35,520 bases of DNA from a virus: positions 1 through 35,520 of the IMG/VR virus record IMGVR_UViG_3300046533_000344; one strand, written 5' to 3'. The notes under the pieces were generated by a model that did not search any database, was not told the DNA's origin, and worked only from the letters and a program-made list of their open reading frames with translations. Position numbers and translations under genes: made by a program. Positions 12,716 to 23,684 of this stretch are shown piece after piece (positions within the stretch are counted from its first letter, which is position 1; every line of letters begins with the position of its first letter).

Positions 12716-13110
12716 TGTGGAGAGGACAGATTGAGCGTGAAGGCCAGCGGTTCGCCGTCAGCTCCCGCGTGCTCCAGCTTCGTCGGCGCGTCCAGGCCCA
12801 GGAGCTTCGCCCGCCGGTCCATCACCGCGACGACCGCGCGAACGGCCTTCTCGTCGCCAGCCTTGACCTTGGGCCAGAGCGCCAGCACCAGCTTGTCGCA
12901 CCGCTCCAGCTCCAGCTCGCGTAGCTTCTCGGCCTTCTTCGCCGACAGCGCCGCCAGCTCGCCGAGCGCGGCCTGGACATCCCGATACGCCGTCTGATGG
13001 TTGACGCCGAGCTGCGCGCCGATCTGCCGGTAGCGTACGCCCGCGATCCTTAGCTCCAGGGCCTTCCCGCGCCGCTCTATCGCCGCTTCCGATTGGCCAG
13101 TCTTAGGCAT
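12712..13110 (-). CDS. terS: terminase small subunit-like HTH protein (132 aa)
   Basis: Start taken at ATG 13108-13110 (MPKTGQSEAAIERRG), which overlaps the methyltransferase stop. An N-terminal helix-turn-helix reads LRIAGVRYRQIGAQLGVNHQ then TAYRDVQAALGE. A long helix follows (LSAKKAEKLRELELERCDKL) that could oligomerise, then RAVVAVMDRRAKLLGLDAP, the usual late part of such proteins. Small terminases recognise the packaging site as a ring. The assignment rests on this architecture and on the ATGA overlap with the large subunit. Confidence 0.8.
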   Translation of the reverse strand: MPKTGQSEAAIERRGKALELRIAGVRYRQIGAQLGVNHQTAYRDVQAALGELAALSAKKAEKLRELELERCDKLVLALWPKVKAGDEKAVRAVVAVMDRRAKLLGLDAPTKLEHAGADGEPLAFTLNLSSPQ

Positions 13111-14509
13111 CGATCTTCTTCGCCTTCTTCCCCGTGAACGCTTCCCAGCGGTCGATGGCAACCTGCACGTACGTCGGGTCCAGCTCGATGGCGAAGACCT
13201 TCCGGGAGGTCATCTCGCCCGCGATGATCGTCGACCCGGAGCCTGAGAACGGCTCGAAGACCTCCAGGATGGCATGGTTCCGCATCGGCCGGGCCATGCA
13301 CTCGACCGGCTTCTGGGTACTGTGAATCGTGTCGCCCGTCTTATCGCGCGTCTCGATATCCCAGACCGTCGAGTCCATCCCTTCAGGGAGCGCGTCGACC
13401 TCGGTGGAGCCGCACGTCTGACAGGTGTGGACGGTCGGAACAATCGGCCAGACCGTCGACTGGTTCCGCTTCCCGCCCCAGTGACCGGTCCGGTTGTCCT
13501 TGACCGCGTAGAAGCAGGTTTCGTGCTGCCAGTGGTAGTGACCGCGCGAGAGGACGATCCGTGGCTTACGCCAGATGATCTGGCTCCTGACGCCGAACGC
13601 CGCCTTCGTCAACGAGTCCTGGACCTCCGAGCAGGCGACCGAGGCGTGCCAGACGTACGCGACATCGCCAGGGAACAGCTTCCAGACCTCGGTCCAGTCC
13701 GCCCGGTCGTCGTTCATCACCTTGCCCATGCGGTCGGACTTGTTCACGCCCGCGCGCGTCCGCCACTCCGGGTCGTACTCGACGCCGTACGGCGGGTCCG
13801 TGACCATCAGGAGAGGCTTGGCCCCAGCCAGCAGCCGGTCGACCGCCTCAGCCGACGTGGAGTCGCCGCAGAGCAGCCGGTGCGGCCCCAGCTCGAACAG
13901 GTCGCCAAGCTGGATCTCGGTGTGCTGCTTGGCCGGGACGGAGTCCGGGTCGGTTAACCCACCGTTAGGTTTCGCGTCCGCTTCGTACAGCGCCGCCAGC
14001 TCGTCCTCGTTCCAGAAGGTGCTCAGGTCGACGCCGTCCGCCGCCAGGGCCTTCAGGACCTCGGTGTCCCAGCCGTCCGCCAGCTCAGCCGCCCGGTTGT
14101 CGAAGATGGCCAGGCGCGCCTTCTGCTCAGGCGTCAGCCCGCGCCGCCGGACCGCGATGATCGTGTTGCCGTCCGCCTCGACCACCTGGACCTTCGTCAG
14201 CCCGGCTTCGCCAGCCGCCTCGATGGTCGCGTTCCCGGCCAGGACGACGTTGTCCTCGTCGATGACGATGCTCCTGGCTGCGCCGACCTCGTTCAGGGCA
14301 TCCACGATGGTGCCGACGTTGCGAGGCGTGTGCTTCCGGGCGTTCTTCGGGTCGGGAACCAGGTCGGAGATGTGGGTCGTCGGGCCGTCGCCAGCCGAGG
14401 GAGCGACCGGAGGAGGCTGCTCGGTGACGAGCTGTGTCGCGCGCGGCTTGGTCTTCTTTGGCGGAACTTCAGCCTGCAGAGCGAGATGCGCGCCGTCTGA
14501 CTCGGCCAT
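13103..14509 (-). CDS. ParB-like domain fused to beta-class DNA methyltransferase (468 aa)
   Basis: Residues about 45-150 form a ParB/Srx-like module (LVPDPKNARKH, then LAGNATIEAA). This N-terminus is common on phage methyltransferases. The catalytic part has MVTDPPYGVEYDPEW at about 236-250 and, near the C-terminus, VFEPFSGSGSTIIAGE for AdoMet binding. The order DPPY before FxGxG is that of beta-class N6-adenine or N4-cytosine enzymes. A CxxC pair (CQTCGST) lies in the target-recognition part. It lies just upstream of the terminase genes and may protect phage DNA from host restriction. The exact target base is not visible. Confidence 0.88.
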   Translation of the reverse strand: MAESDGAHLALQAEVPPKKTKPRATQLVTEQPPPVAPSAGDGPTTHISDLVPDPKNARKHTPRNVGTIVDALNEVGAARSIVIDEDNVVLAGNATIEAAGEAGLTKVQVVEADGNTIIAVRRRGLTPEQKARLAIFDNRAAELADGWDTEVLKALAADGVDLSTFWNEDELAALYEADAKPNGGLTDPDSVPAKQHTEIQLGDLFELGPHRLLCGDSTSAEAVDRLLAGAKPLLMVTDPPYGVEYDPEWRTRAGVNKSDRMGKVMNDDRADWTEVWKLFPGDVAYVWHASVACSEVQDSLTKAAFGVRSQIIWRKPRIVLSRGHYHWQHETCFYAVKDNRTGHWGGKRNQSTVWPIVPTVHTCQTCGSTEVDALPEGMDSTVWDIETRDKTGDTIHSTQKPVECMARPMRNHAILEVFEPFSGSGSTIIAGEMTSRKVFAIELDPTYVQVAIDRWEAFTGKKAKKIDA

Positions 14510-14542: not shown

Positions 14543-14671
14543 TCAGAATCTCCGCCTCCAGGCGTACGCCCAGAGCATCAGCGGGAGAGGCCAGGGCGAC
14601 CCGGCCATCCAGAGGACCGAGCCGGTCAGGAGCGTCAGGACGAACCGGTCGCGCGGACCGAGCCGCCTCAT
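14543..14671 (-). CDS. small membrane protein (42 aa)
   Basis: ATG at 14669-14671 overlaps the helicase stop (ATGA). MRRLGPRDR is followed by two hydrophobic runs (FVLTLLTGSVLWMAG and PLPLMLWAYAW) and ends RRRF. A two-helix hairpin is likely. Function unknown. Confidence 0.6.
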   Translation of the reverse strand: MRRLGPRDRFVLTLLTGSVLWMAGSPWPLPLMLWAYAWRRRF

Positions 14672-15873
14672 CTCCGCCTCCGTGATGTCCTCGGCGCGCC
14701 GAGGTAGGTGTTCGTCAACTGCGTGTCGCCTGACCAGACGGCCCACTGCTCGCCGCCCTTGCCGCCCGCCACCAGCTTCAGGTCCTCGATCTTCCCGAAC
14801 TGGTCGACGTTGCCGACCATGTCGACAATCATACCGTGAGACTTGCCAGGCGACGGCCGAACCGCCCGGCCGACCTGTTGGTAGTACTTGGTCAGGCTGA
14901 GCGTCGGGTGCGCCAGGACGACCGTGTCCAGCTCCGGGAAGTCGAAGCCGAGGCCCAGGACGCCGACGTTGGCGATGACCTTCAGCTTCCCGGCCTTGAA
15001 GTCGGTAATAAGAGCCGCGCGTTCCCATCGGCCGGTTTCCCCGGTGACGACCTCGGCCTGTCCAGAGAACGCCGTCGCCAGCTCCTCGGCCTCGTCAACG
15101 TAGCGCGTGAAGACCAGAACGTGCTGCCGCCCGATGGTCAGCAGCCGCCGGACGACCCGCTCCAGCCGAGCACTAAAGGCCGTCGCTTTCAGGTGCGCCT
15201 TGAGGGACTCGTCGTCGAAGTCCGAGCCGGTCGTGTTCCGCTTGACCGCGCCCGCGTAGAAGCCCGGAACCCGGTGGTACTCCAGCGGAGCCAGGAAGCC
15301 CTGCCGGAACAGGTCGCCGGTCTGGGTCACATGCAGGACATCAGTGAAGACGCGCGGACGGGTCCGGGTCAGAAACTTCAGGATGGCCCCGCCGTAGCCG
15401 TCGACCGTCAGCCGGTACGGCGTCGCCGTCAAGCCGAGGATCTTCGCGCCCTGTAGCTTCTCGAAGAATTGCCGGTACATGGTCCCGGCGACCGCGCCGA
15501 CCAGATGGGCCTCGTCGACGATGACGTACTTGGTCCCGGCGAACGGCGCGACATCGTTGACGACGCTGCCGATGGTCGCGAGGGTGATCTGCCCGGTCGT
15601 CTTCTCGCCCATTGATGCCGACCATACGCTCGGAGCGTAGCCGTAGCTCAGGAGCTTCTCGGCGTTCTGTTCGAGGATCTCCTTGGTCGGCTGGAAGACG
15701 ATGGTCCGCCCGCCGAGCTGCGTCGCCAGGTTCGCGATGATGAGCGCCTTCCCAGACCCGGTCGGTGCGACGATGAGGCCGTGCCTTGGCTTCGTCGGCG
15801 ACTGCGGCTGGGACAGGAACGTCACGCCCGCGTGAACGGCCGCTGCCTGGTAGCCCCGGAGCGCGTAGCTCAC
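14668..15873 (-). CDS. SF2 DEAH-box helicase (401 aa)
   Basis: ATP-driven helicase or branch-migration enzyme. Motif Q-like region MSYALRGYQAAAVHAG, Walker A APTGSGKA at residues 36-43, motif II DEAH at 120-123 and motif III LTATPYR at 148-154 are all present. The second RecA domain ends with VGVLGLGFDFPELD and QQVGRAVRPSPGK (motif VI). This is a UvsW/ComF-like two-domain enzyme without extra modules. It likely acts in replication or recombination. GTG start overlaps the upstream stop (GTGA). Confidence 0.9.
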   Translation of the reverse strand: MSYALRGYQAAAVHAGVTFLSQPQSPTKPRHGLIVAPTGSGKALIIANLATQLGGRTIVFQPTKEILEQNAEKLLSYGYAPSVWSASMGEKTTGQITLATIGSVVNDVAPFAGTKYVIVDEAHLVGAVAGTMYRQFFEKLQGAKILGLTATPYRLTVDGYGGAILKFLTRTRPRVFTDVLHVTQTGDLFRQGFLAPLEYHRVPGFYAGAVKRNTTGSDFDDESLKAHLKATAFSARLERVVRRLLTIGRQHVLVFTRYVDEAEELATAFSGQAEVVTGETGRWERAALITDFKAGKLKVIANVGVLGLGFDFPELDTVVLAHPTLSLTKYYQQVGRAVRPSPGKSHGMIVDMVGNVDQFGKIEDLKLVAGGKGGEQWAVWSGDTQLTNTYLGAPRTSRRRR

Positions 15874-20070: not shown

Positions 20071-20305
20071 GCTTCGCCTCCTCCTCCAGTGCTGCCCAGG
20101 TCTCGCTGTTTTCGCTGACCATCTGGTTATAGAACGCCTGGACCTCTGGCTTCTCGAACTGGTCCGCGTACGCCTCGCGCACGCCGTCCGGGAGCAGGTC
20201 GCTGTCACCGCCGTCGGCCGCGTCGGCGACGGCCAGGAAGATCTCGACCAGCGCGCGGACGACGACCGGCTTCAGCGGCTCGCCCATCTTCGGTTTGAAC
20301 ATCAT
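20057..20305 (-). CDS. acidic hypothetical protein (82 aa)
   Basis: Starts MMFKPKMGEPLKPVVVRALV and contains an acidic, helical region (AVADAADGGDSDLLPDGVRE). Looks like a small phage protein without motifs. The ATG at 20300-20302 may be the true start because of spacing to GAGGG. It lies just downstream of the 45-aa gene. Confidence 0.55.
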   Translation of the reverse strand: MMFKPKMGEPLKPVVVRALVEIFLAVADAADGGDSDLLPDGVREAYADQFEKPEVQAFYNQMVSENSETWAALEEEAKHGKG

Positions 20306-20317
20306 GCCCTCATGCCA

Positions 20318-20455
20318 TCATGCCGCGACGTACCACTTCCCCAGGTAGCGGAACAGGACGCCGGTCGTCTGCCCCGGAGGCAGCGCGACGAAGCGCTGGA
20401 TGTCCTCGTGGAAGACGACCAGCAGCGACCCGTCCGGTTGTCGTTCGACGCCCAT
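20318..20455 (-). CDS. beta-rich microprotein directly behind the pentamer array (45 aa)
   Basis: ATG at 20453-20455 follows GAGGAG, about eight bases upstream, and that SD is itself one of the array pentamers. The product begins MGVERQPDGSLLVVF and continues HEDIQRFVALPPGQTTG then LFRYLGKWYV, a likely small beta barrel or SH3-like sheet. Frames that extend upstream through the array are not credible. Being the first gene after the array, it is a candidate for a protein linked to it, by position only. Confidence 0.6.
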   Translation of the reverse strand: MGVERQPDGSLLVVFHEDIQRFVALPPGQTTGVLFRYLGKWYVAA

Positions 20456-20458
20456 GCC

Positions 20459-21582
20459 TGCCACTCCTCGCCGGGCCGCGCCACGCCTGCCCATCCGAAC
20501 CCAGACTTGCCTTGCCCCGCCTTGCCTGCCGGACACCGCCTCGCTCTTCCTGACCTCTCCCTGCCATGCCTGCCAGACCGGACGAAGCCGGGCCTAGCCT
20601 CACCACGCCTGCCGAGCCGCTCCGCGCGCCGCCTAGCCTTACCTGTCCAGGCCCTGCTTCGCCTGGCCTGCCGAACCGCGCCTAGCCCAGCGCAACCGGA
20701 CCTCGCCTGGCCTGCCGCTCCGTTCTTAGCCCAGCCAAGCCAGGCCGGGTCCAGCCCAACCTCGCCTGCCGCTCCACGCCACGCGATGCCGAACCCGTCA
20801 GCGCCGCGCACCGCCACGCCTGCCGAACCGTGCCGAACCGTGCCGAACCGTGCCAGGCCCAGCCTCGCCTCGCCAGGCCCATCCTGCCGAGCCGAGCCAT
20901 GCCATTCCCGGCCTCGCCTTTCCTTACCTGCCTCGCCGAACACCGACTCGCCCTGCCTGGCTTCGCCCTGCCATGCCTGCCGAACCAGACCCAGCCAGTC
21001 CTCGCCTTACCTAACCAAGCCTGCCAAGCCCGACCGCGCCATTCCCGGCCGCGCCAGGACACGCCTAGCCTGCCGAGCCGCGCGCAACCTTACCCCGCCT
21101 GTCGTTACCCAACCACTCCATACCTGGCCTGCCGAGCCTAACCTATCCACGCATGACCACGCCTTGCCCAGCATTACCGAGCCTGCCGCTCCGAACTAAA
21201 CCCAGCCGCGCCCGGCCGCGCAGCGCCTAACCAGTCCTGCCGAACCGCGCCAGACCTAGCCGACCTGACCTAGCCGAACCTGCCGAACCGCTCCATGCCC
21301 GTCCCGACTACGCCCCGCTGGGCCAGTCATGACCACGCCTGCCGATCCGACCTCACCAGTCCAGGCCCGGCCGAGCCTCGCCCCGCCTGCCAGACCTCGC
21401 TGGACCTTGCCCTACCAGACGCCGCCTTGCCGCGCCTGCCGTTCCTTGCCTCTCCAAGCCCGAACACGCCAGACCAGGCCAGTCCTAGCCCTACCACGCC
21501 TGCCTCGCCGTGACCCGCCATGCACCGCTGTGCCACGCCTGCCGAACCAGGCCGCGCCAGTCCTAGCCCTGCCTTGCCTGCC
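20459..21582 (-). repeat. GGCA-punctuated GGNNN pentamer array (23 units)
   Basis: Non-coding stretch of 1,124 bases. Read on the minus strand it parses without remainder into units of one GGCA tetramer plus 5 to 12 pentamers. By hand I count 204 pentamers, of which about 173 start with GG, with the third base mostly C or T. Two extra GGTC tetramers occur. Unit lengths are mostly 39, 44, 49, 54, 59 or 64. The last pentamer of a unit is often GGTTC, GGCTC or GGAGC. No frame codes for a sensible protein; open frames on both strands come from the composition. Function unknown. Confidence 0.85.
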
Positions 21583-21587
21583 GAGAC

Positions 21588-22217
21588 TTAGACGCGCTCG
21601 AACCGGCCCCAGCCCAGCGCGCTCGACCGCTCCGGCCGTCCCTCGCAGATCCCGACGCCCCAACCCGCCTGGTCAATCAGCGCCAGAAGCTGGGCCTGGC
21701 TGATGAGCCGAGGGTTGAATTCGATGCGGACCCTGAGCTGCCAGTGCGGGTAGATCGGCCGGTAGACGAGGCCGCGCGTGTTGATCCCGATGGTGACCGC
21801 GTCCTCCCGCATCGCGCCGATGGCTGGCCCGCCGTTCGGCGTCTCGATGGGAACATACGCCGCGCCAGGCGACGCCACGCTGTCGACGAAGATCGCCTGC
21901 CGGAGCGCAACCTTGGTCAGATCGTCGAACGCCGTCGCCGCCGAGATGAGGGACTTCTTGAGCGCCGTGATCGGCGCGCACTCCCGGCCCTGCTCGTCGA
22001 CGTACCGCGCCGCCAGGAACTCCGTCTCCGGCACGCGCTCCGCCTTCGCCTTCTTCGCCTTCTTCTGCTGCTTGTCCCGGATCTCCTGCTTGGCCTTCTC
22101 GGCGAACGCATGGATGACCAGAGGCGATCCGTTGCGCCCGCGCAGCGTGACCTCGATGCTCTGGATGCCGGTCGTTGCCGTGTTCTCGGTTGGTGCTGCC
22201 AGTACTGCCGTCGTCAT
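21588..22217 (-). CDS. conserved phage protein with Gly-rich C-terminal loop (209 aa)
   Basis: Starts after the cassette GGAGACGAAGATG. The N-terminal part includes IEVTLRGRNGSPLVIHAFAE and a Lys-rich segment (QQKKAKKAKAERVPETEFLA). The middle reads ITALKKSLISAATAFDDL. The C-terminus ends QAGWGVGICEGRPERS then LGWGRFERV, a Gly-rich loop followed by 'GRF', known from a widespread phage family of unknown function that is found near recombination genes. The loop resembles those of RAMP-fold RNA-binding proteins, which is a loose comparison. The TAA is directly followed by the pentamer array. Confidence 0.65.
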   Translation of the reverse strand: MTTAVLAAPTENTATTGIQSIEVTLRGRNGSPLVIHAFAEKAKQEIRDKQQKKAKKAKAERVPETEFLAARYVDEQGRECAPITALKKSLISAATAFDDLTKVALRQAIFVDSVASPGAAYVPIETPNGGPAIGAMREDAVTIGINTRGLVYRPIYPHWQLRVRIEFNPRLISQAQLLALIDQAGWGVGICEGRPERSSALGWGRFERV

Positions 22218-22238: not shown

Positions 22239-22787
22239 TTATTTGAGCTTCACGTTTCGGCCTTCGAGTTTGAGGCGGTCGGCCAGGGCCTGCTGGTCCG
22301 CCGCGTCGACGCAGGACACGGACAACCAGCACGCGGTCGTCTCGCCCTTCGCGATCTTCTTGGTTTCCTTGATCTGCGCGCGCACCTGGTCGCGCGTGAG
22401 ATGTTCCGCCTCGGCCTTGTCGAGCCAGGCGTCCTGCTGGTCCGGTTCCAGCGGCGCGACCTCCTGATGAATCGCGAACGGGAGCGACTCGCGCCGACGG
22501 CTCGGAGGAATCGCGCGCGCGACCCAGGCCAGGTTGTCCGCCGTCCCAGACTCGTAGTCGACCGCGTCGAGGAACTGGCTGTACGTCTCCGGGAAGGTGA
22601 CCTCGCCGAACGCCAGCAGATCGCCGACCCAGAACGGACTCGCCCGGTGCGCGTGCTTGGCCCAGGCCAGCGTCTCGCCCCACTCCTCGACGGTCATGTC
22701 CTCGGTCGCGACGACACGGTTGCCCTCGAACTCGAACTTCCCAATCGTGAACGGAGCGACCTCTAGGGCCTCAGCGACAGCTTCCAT
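22239..22787 (-). CDS. conserved phage protein, ParB/plasmid-like helical region (182 aa)
   Basis: The start is taken as the ATG at 22785-22787, six bases after GGAG; an ATG two codons earlier is inside the spacer. The pattern VARAIPPSRRRESLPFAIHQ then EQDAWLDKAE-like (PDQQDAWLDKAEAEHLTRDQ) is conserved in phage and plasmid proteins with a DNA-binding helical domain. The N-terminal half has FWVGDLLAFGEVTF. It may take part in replication or partition; no catalytic motif. Confidence 0.6.
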   Translation of the reverse strand: MEAVAEALEVAPFTIGKFEFEGNRVVATEDMTVEEWGETLAWAKHAHRASPFWVGDLLAFGEVTFPETYSQFLDAVDYESGTADNLAWVARAIPPSRRRESLPFAIHQEVAPLEPDQQDAWLDKAEAEHLTRDQVRAQIKETKKIAKGETTACWLSVSCVDAADQQALADRLKLEGRNVKLK

Positions 22788-22789
22788 CG

Positions 22790-23248
22790 TCATCTCCTAG
22801 CGCCGAACACTTCGCCCAGCACTTGAATCGCCCGGCCACTATATATCATATCAGTAGTGAAACGCAAGAGCCGATATCCAGCCAGCGTGAGCGCATTATA
22901 CTTCTCGATGTCGTTCACGTACCCCTGCCCGAAGTTGTGCCGAGACTTCTGCCATGTCCCGCCCTCGACCTCGACGACCAGGCGACGGACAGCCCAGTAG
23001 AAGTCCACCTGCCACTTGCGCCCAGGAATCAGACGGACCTCGCGCTCTGGAGCCGGGATGCCATCCGAGTTGAGCTGGAGCAGGAGCGCCTCCTCGCCAG
23101 GACTCGGCGCGCGCTTCGCCTTGCGCCGCTCGACCGGCGTTTCCTCCGGCCAGTCGCGGACGACCTCGGCCCGCTTCAGATCGGCGCGCGGTTTCGGGAG
23201 CCGCCGCTTGAGTCGCATCACGTCGGCCTCGGTCCAGCGTTGCGTCAT
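22790..23248 (-). CDS. Vsr/DUF559-like endonuclease (152 aa)
   Basis: Nuclease of the PD-(D/E)xK fold related to Vsr. After an N-terminal basic helix, SPGEEALLLQLNSDG supplies the first Glu. REVRLIPGRKWQVDFYWAVR gives the catalytic Asp (about 82) and LVVEVEGGTW the ExE (93, 95). KYNALTLAGYRLLRFTTDMI is the usual late strand. The gene starts with ATG overlapping the upstream stop, and its TGA lies inside the SD of the next gene. Probably acts on branched or mismatched DNA in phage recombination. Confidence 0.8.
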   Translation of the reverse strand: MTQRWTEADVMRLKRRLPKPRADLKRAEVVRDWPEETPVERRKAKRAPSPGEEALLLQLNSDGIPAPEREVRLIPGRKWQVDFYWAVRRLVVEVEGGTWQKSRHNFGQGYVNDIEKYNALTLAGYRLLRFTTDMIYSGRAIQVLGEVFGARR

Positions 23249-23439
23249 GCAGGACTCCACGTCGTCGAGCACCACGTACAGAAGAACTCGCCAGACGGTT
23301 TCGCGATGGCCCCGGTCTGTTGACAGCTCGGACATCTCGCCGACGTGAGGCGCGAGCGCTCGGCCTTGTCCTTCGGCAGCTTCATCATCGGCCGCGCGCC
23401 GGGCCGACGGAGGCCCAACTTCTCGTTGATCTTGCTCAT
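23245..23439 (-). CDS. zinc-ribbon protein (64 aa)
   Basis: Two CxxC pairs (CPSCQQTG and CTWCSTTW) form a zinc ribbon after a basic start (MSKINEKLGLRRPGARPMMK). Overlaps both neighbours by ATGA. May bind nucleic acid. No family named. Confidence 0.65.
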   Translation of the reverse strand: MSKINEKLGLRRPGARPMMKLPKDKAERSRLTSARCPSCQQTGAIAKPSGEFFCTWCSTTWSPA

Positions 23440-23684
23440 CGCCAGCCCGCGTCGTAGAGGTCAACCTGCATCTGGAGGTTCAACCAGAACTCCGGCGTCG
23501 TCTTCGTGTACTGCGCGAAGATGAGCGCCACGCGCGTCGACACATTCCGCCGACCGTGGATGATGTCGCCGAGGTACGTCGCCGCGATGCCCATCTTCCG
23601 CGCGGCGTCCTGCTGGGTCTCGGATAGAAACTGCTCAATGAAGACCTGACCGGGAGGCGTCGGCTCGCGCTGCTTCGGCGTCAT
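23436..23684 (-). CDS. HigA-like XRE antitoxin (82 aa)
   Basis: Helix-turn-helix protein of the HigA type: PGQVFIEQFLSETQQDAARK, then GIAATYLGDIIHGRRNVSTR, then LIFAQYTKTTPEFWLNLQMQ, the family's 'TPEFWLNLQ' end. HigA is usually cotranscribed with the HigB toxin, but neither neighbour looks like a toxin. It could repress phage genes or neutralise a host toxin. Coupled to both neighbours. Confidence 0.85.
   Translation of the reverse strand: MTPKQREPTPPGQVFIEQFLSETQQDAARKMGIAATYLGDIIHGRRNVSTRVALIFAQYTKTTPEFWLNLQMQVDLYDAGWR

Follow-up and report, generated by a model that had tools for sequence, protein, structure and literature searches.

The 35,520-nt viral stretch analysed in this work (IMG/VR record IMGVR_UViG_3300046533_000344, hereafter the window) encodes on its minus strand a Vipr-family protein and, next to it, an array of GGY-NN pentamers, and is therefore best understood as carrying a VIPR system with an array of about 23 guides (probability roughly 0.93). 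VIPR consists of Vipr proteins and guide RNAs of alternating GGY and NN elements; the NN pairs recognize DNA, skipping one base of the target, and rival phages and satellites are repressed (PMC13142463, 2026). VIPR, thought to be a weapon that phages use against rival phages, first appeared in print in April 2026, and the window adds a new and very large guide array to it. The original prediction for this DNA, made from the sequence alone, had been aware of no described phage element of this design, a view overtaken by the VIPR preprint (PMC13142463). In the literature searched, from 2024 on, no further description of VIPR was found, and a literature search on the repeat itself yielded nothing relevant.

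The array extends over positions 20459..21582 (minus strand) and consists of about 23 guide units, most of them 7-12 pentamers long, punctuated by GGCA tetramers. An independent dynamic-programming parse, whose array segment spans 21578-20449, gave 231 steps, 200 of them starting with GG. It yielded 205 pentamers, 174 of which start with GG, and 25 tetramers (22 GGCA, 2 GGTC and 1 GGAT), close to the original count of 23 units, each GGCA plus pentamers, with about 173 of 204 pentamers beginning with GG. The GG-starting pentamers comprise 149 GGY, 24 GGA and a single GGG. The third pentamer base is C in 62%, T in 24% and A in 14% of the cases and almost never G, and bases 4 and 5 are nearly free. 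The repeat unit is GGY-NN rather than GG-NNN, and the earlier claim that the three bases following GG vary almost freely holds for bases 4 and 5, not for base 3. Self-overlap of GG was highest at lag 5 (152), declining slowly at lags 10, 15 and 20, and the series at lags 4, 9, 14, 19 and 24 rose from 54 to 112. Raw spacings between GGCAGG marks were of the predicted 5n+4 type (29, 39, 44, 49, 54, 59 and 64) with the two anticipated exceptions, 48 and 43. Further spacings of 9, 15, 25, 30 and 35 represent extra marks inside units, which arise because the pentamer GGCAG followed by G mimics a mark. It is the spacing that is conserved and not the sequence, as had been proposed.

The array occupies the space between two genes. 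Its start is separated by 5 nt from the stop codon of vipr, and at its other end the ATG (at 20455) of a 45-aa reading frame (20318..20455, minus strand) sits in the last array pentamer. The units directly adjoin one another and have no visible 3' tail between them. Across the arrays of the window and its relatives, the bases preceding the separator are biased (A-rich, then no G) and those following it less so (826 separators); the absence of G is partly due to the parse, which forces it. Separators other than GGCA made up 155 of 829 in this class. A search of Rfam with the 20300-21700 region gave no match.

Chance can hardly account for this arrangement: the array scored 112.9, whereas none of 300 shuffled versions of the segment exceeded 8.0, and it was the single array in the whole window at a score of 8, three shuffles of the whole window giving at most 5.0. 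Within one guide unit (20821-20854) Tandem Repeats Finder detected a 10-mer of two pentamers repeated 3.4 times, which is a possible sign of slippage creating new guides. Short tandem runs of this kind speak for a purely mutational origin, i.e. a pentamer microsatellite driven by slippage and having no selected role. However, such runs were limited to two in the array (34 and 30 bp), the spacing is kept while the letters differ, and in all 88 cases among the matches listed (see below) the array is linked on the same strand to one and the same gene family. This linkage largely contradicts the mutational explanation, which we consider extremely improbable.

Just as improbable is that the region encodes a translated repeat protein, or that it arose by faulty assembly. 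Long frames do enter the array on both strands, and a hypothetical gene is annotated over the array of phage Donkeykong (NC_051648, 36870-37256, corresponding to positions 871-1257 of locus L197), but none of the listed window frames spans the whole array, and each tetramer shifts the frame. The case of Donkeykong illustrates that arrays of the GGCA class can hide in phage records as false genes. As to an assembly artefact, the same design recurs in complete, named phage genomes.

The gene adjoining the array, vipr (21588..22217, minus strand), encodes a 209-aa protein. A profile built from 86 relatives, with the window protein as first sequence, matched PDB entry 36pp chain D, annotated as 'SUSP1 Vipr protein', with an E-value of 1.1e-16 over profile positions 5-183 of 186; this was the one strong match in PDB. 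All 86 aligned relatives fell into phrog_4652, a PHROGs family without a function name, and Pfam, NCBIfam and PADLOC offered no credible family for the protein. The AlphaFold model (pLDDT 93.1) had Csm, Cmr and type VII CRISPR subunits as its top Foldseek matches (best E 4.5e-5, TM-scores of about 0.4-0.5), and VIA-align superimposed it on chain 9g9f_D of a Csm complex with a Z-score of 11.6 (3.4 Å, 153 residues) and on the Csm3 structure 5yjd with a Z-score of 11.0. By its predicted fold the protein is a Cas7-like RAMP. Near the C-terminus the residues G185, G189, R194 and G204 are invariant among the aligned relatives, and this region presumably forms a glycine-rich loop.

The partner of the array is thus most likely an oligomeric RNA-binding protein taking one repeat per subunit. 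In this respect the suggestion of a ring or filament protein reading every fifth base came near the mark, but it missed the guide role: letters that had been treated as free are the guide information, and the partner gene 5 nt upstream had been overlooked. TRAP, the trp RNA-binding protein, which reads regularly spaced short RNA motifs, has a different fold. TRAP was dropped after the partner gene had been identified, together with quadruplex formation, coating by a Redbeta/RecT-like protein and a switch region. The results gave no hint of the replication or packaging landmark that had been offered as another possibility.

At least 120 stretches of viral contigs, some of them near-duplicates of one another, matched the blind DNA pattern GGCAGG(NNNGG)5, and 108 of the 120 listed had an array score of 12 or higher. 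Among the matches listed, a vipr-family gene was present in 88 of the 108 array stretches, in all 88 on the same strand as the array and at most 862 nt away, and in none of the 12 stretches that failed the array scan; the vipr profile used here was seeded by the window protein and iterated on these same stretches (cut-off E 1e-10). Among the same matches, 20 arrays had no vipr gene at this cut-off; 15 of them were no more than 250 nt away from a stretch end, and the other five were those of L012, L037, L039, L043 and L070, of which L070 had a weak vipr match below the cut-off (E 5.5e-7). GGCA-punctuated arrays are thereby placed beside vipr in at least 88 viral stretches, near-duplicates included, and they occur beside vipr also in cultured Mycobacterium and Gordonia phages.

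The converse search, starting from the protein, found an array in 21 of 27 viral relatives at a score of 10, including 18 of the 18 with at least 69% Vipr identity, and in 26 of 35 bacterial genome loci at a score of 9; in the remaining 6 viral relatives and 9 genome loci no array reached these thresholds. Arrays were seen also in phages Saal, ODay and UmaThurman; in Pseudomonas phage LESphi2 the pattern takes the form of two single tracts (11-12 repeats). The consensus over 8021 pentamers was GG-C/T-NN, in agreement with the VIPR preprint. A much longer contig, L129 (IMGVR_UViG_3300046535_000869, 102 kb), has the same vipr (100%) and the same 22 guides as the window. With the exception of L129, the window guides appear not to be shared with other vipr relatives: just one of the 98 guides parsed there resembled a window guide at 75%.

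Directly upstream of vipr lies a 184-aa gene (22239..22793, minus strand), which is probably not part of the VIPR system, since no homologue of it was found near 17 close vipr relatives. The next gene upstream (22790-23464) has a DUF559 match (phrog_503) and probably encodes a nuclease. Farther away, a DNA methylase gene adjoins a gene for a DEAD/ResIII-type helicase (13103-14509 and 14668-15873). When flanks of up to 6 kb were compared, none of ten neighbouring frames of the window (one of which, 20302-20457, was a wrong frame) had a homologue near 17 other close vipr genes, which suggests that the vipr cassette sits in unlike phages.

Many vipr loci have an accessory gene of about 140-165 aa after vipr (e.g. 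L192, 4570-5025). The profile of this family, which came from clustering of neighbour genes with the arrays masked, matched 82 of 117 vipr stretches (the window being entered twice among these) and 38 of 42 loci from genomes and named phages, and it matched none of 19 loci comprising the window and 18 close relatives. Pfam had no match for the three members scanned. The family was also encountered where no vipr was detected, with an array in L012, L070, L074 and L093 and, in L058, with no array at the threshold.

Compared with the published system, the window shares with VIPR a RAMP protein of about 20 kD, an adjoining GGY/NN tract and a phage home; for its relatives, tests support also the 1-nt-skip code (see below). 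Seven VIPR types have been described; their arrays differ in layout, and among them are 'staggered arrays with overlapping vrRNAs'. In the SUSP1 / P. fulva form (type II) each guide has 9-16 repeats and ends in an invariant 3' tail, and an accessory gene (vap) beside vipr, i.e. two genes, is typical although not universal (PMC13142463). The window differs in that some 23 units form a single series with GGCA register slips between them, that tails of the kind carried by the vrRNAs of the preprint's main text are not visible, and that vipr has no neighbouring accessory gene of the family found in its relatives (as distinct from the vap families of the preprint). Because its units, most of them of 7-12 pentamers, directly adjoin one another without a tail, the window is not placed in the SUSP1 / P. 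fulva form.

The predicted fold of the protein resembles the RAMPs (Csm3/Cas7) of Class 1 CRISPR-Cas. The window system nevertheless does not belong to that class: Tandem Repeats Finder and the spacing analysis revealed no constant CRISPR repeat in the array, Pfam and PHROGs scans of window frames detected no additional cas family, and the code is noncontiguous. RNA-guide arrays in phages are also a feature of TIGR-Tas, which was reportedly found starting from the guide-binding domain of Cas9 (PMC12045711).

In relatives of the window the NN pairs could be examined for a message. If one target base is skipped, all NN pairs within a guide are expected to look like a single set of two codon positions, read from a single strand. 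Among 796 guides from 119 loci, analysed without any use of target knowledge, guides were more coherent than permuted ones for codon positions 1-2, sense versus antisense (z 5.0), and controls based on GC content, purines or single bases showed no excess coherence (z -1.7 to -0.5). In an all-frame likelihood test the 1-nt skip gave a z of 4.45, as opposed to -0.31, -0.70 and -0.31 for skips of 0, 2 and 3; with a period of 3, a skip of 1 cannot be separated from a skip of 4. After removal of internally repeated or paralogous guides (701 guides and 112 loci remaining) z was 3.07, and none of 200 permutations reached this value. These statistics support the 1-nt-skip code for the GGCA-punctuated arrays of the relatives. 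The s23/a23 statistic (z 4.2) was rejected as a separate signal (log-ratio correlation -0.91), and the similarity of NN composition to codon positions 1-2, the best of six with a correlation of 0.54, was discounted because RNA-level constraints confound it. In the 796 guides a dependence (z 5.6, relative to permuted guides) was also seen between the first letter of an NN pair and the second letter of the pair that follows.

The coherence within guides bears on another explanation, namely that the array is an RNA or single-stranded DNA scaffold coated by the RAMP-like protein, for example as a sponge, in translational control of the next gene or in packaging, and that the NN pairs carry no message. 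It would suit such a scaffold that the start codon of the following frame lies at the array's end and that the array RNA (942 nt) folds better than 20 shuffles (z -5.1); this folding is not predicted by the guide model and counts against it. Neutral NN pairs, on the other hand, would give neither the codon-phase coherence seen within the relatives' guides nor their 1-nt-skip matches in phage genes described below, and we regard the scaffold as quite unlikely.

The rumen Clostridiales locus L190 offered an entry to the targets. Two of its guides differ at 2 of 14 shared pairs and, when read as codons, are variants of one motif with Ala/Ser and Tyr/Phe differences, a relationship that also speaks against neutral NN pairs. 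The derived pattern (21 fixed bases, at most 3 mismatches) had four matches in three of 8 genomes searched, and the reversed control had none. In L204 the motif occurred with 1 mismatch in a 37-aa partial frame at the contig end (GTDAHSLCEFKV), in L205 with 3 mismatches in a DUF2800 gene, and in L203, also with 3 mismatches, the longest frame was out of phase. An L190 guide pattern had no match in viral_contigs.

When 845 guides from 163 loci were scanned against 77 viral loci around the DUF2800 gene, six guides had matches at E<0.001 with the 1-nt skip and none with skips of 0, 2 or 3, five shuffles giving 0, 0, 0, 1 and 0; these E-values assume equal base frequencies and are uncorrected for the 845 guides, from which identical ones alone had been removed. 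At E<0.1 there were 25 guides with the 1-nt skip, as against 10, 17 and 6 with skips of 0, 2 and 3 and 24, 10, 14, 12 and 19 in the five shuffles. The skip rules thus differ in the extreme tail only, and looser cut-offs show no clear difference.

Five of the six matches have the skipped base at the third (wobble) codon position. These are an L178 guide (23/24) and two L190 guides (25/28 and 25/30) in the DUF2800 exonuclease, an L055 guide (20/20) in DNA polymerase, and an L096 guide (19/20, antisense) in a gp2.5-like single-strand-binding protein. The sixth, an L059 guide (16/16), does not agree in phase with the longest frame and is probably a chance match. Weaker in-phase matches were those of a third L190 guide (20/24, E 0.002) and of L070 (15/16, E 0.007), the latter apparently adjoining the L055 site in a homologous gene. 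Since it was L190 that led to the DUF2800 gene, its two guides are not independent evidence; the L178, L055 and L096 matches are. Taken together, the L178, L055, L190 and L096 matches suggest that guides of the GGCA class address replication genes of other phages, and they lend independent support, from sequence alone, to a wobble-skipping code and to such genes as targets.

For the guides of the window itself no target was found: the best hit among the 77 target loci was 19/24 (E 0.025), and no match stood out among the best 25 in 2.7 Mb of both strands. Three window guides (20, 18 and 18 fixed bases) had 0, 0 and 1 matches in viral_contigs, the single one looking like chance (AT-rich contig, next guide position mismatched). 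The skip rules showed no difference when 534 guides were compared with 1.35 Mb of vipr loci, nor when 34 guides from 8 named-phage or prophage loci were used, for which the targets included stretches of Che8, TM4 and Giles. A Saal guide had no match in its target search, and a guide of a Streptomyces prophage had one in 392 genomes, with 2 mismatches, which is about chance by our own estimate. Cultured phages such as Saal, Mattes and UmaThurman are places where the code can be tested.

Taking the window to be a VIPR system, we envisage that the array is transcribed from the vipr strand, as the direction of the gene suggests, and would give rise to some 23 guide RNAs. Between 20200 and 23600 the array strand has three terminator-like sites, including one in the array itself, as compared to 1.0 expected, and the sole sigma-70-like promoter match is on the opposite strand. 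Along each guide one Vipr subunit would sit on every pentamer, gripping GGY and leaving NN accessible. The accessible pairs would bind another phage's or a prophage's DNA and would skip one target base at each step, so that the code would run in codon steps ignoring the wobble base, and the complex, once bound, would repress the target gene. The GGCA tetramer would slip the register by one base and, most simply, mark the boundary between guides. If the slip ends one filament, this would explain why the length of the tetramer is more important than the letters in it; a processing signal would be compatible with the pattern as well.

A bolder version, which we offer tentatively and which may well be wrong, is that the window represents a stripped-down branch of VIPR with one protein, no accessory gene and many tail-less guides arranged head to tail, in which the GGCA slip alone punctuates the array by ending one filament and starting the next. 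One long RNA could then be read as two dozen DNA addresses, with no need of a dedicated processing site, and the cassette would be a programmable module against the replication genes of rivals that hops among unrelated phages.

Some guides recur among the relatives. The guide TA-TC-TT-AC-GT-GC-TA-TC was found with small changes in L026, L038, L042, L064, L100, L107 and L120; L026 and L100 look like one array, and L042, L107 and L120 have further guides in common, so that the independent cases are fewer than seven. The L064 version of this guide matched 19/22 in an L278 frame with the sequence ETGLDYDTVKTYV, which resembles a helix-turn-helix motif.
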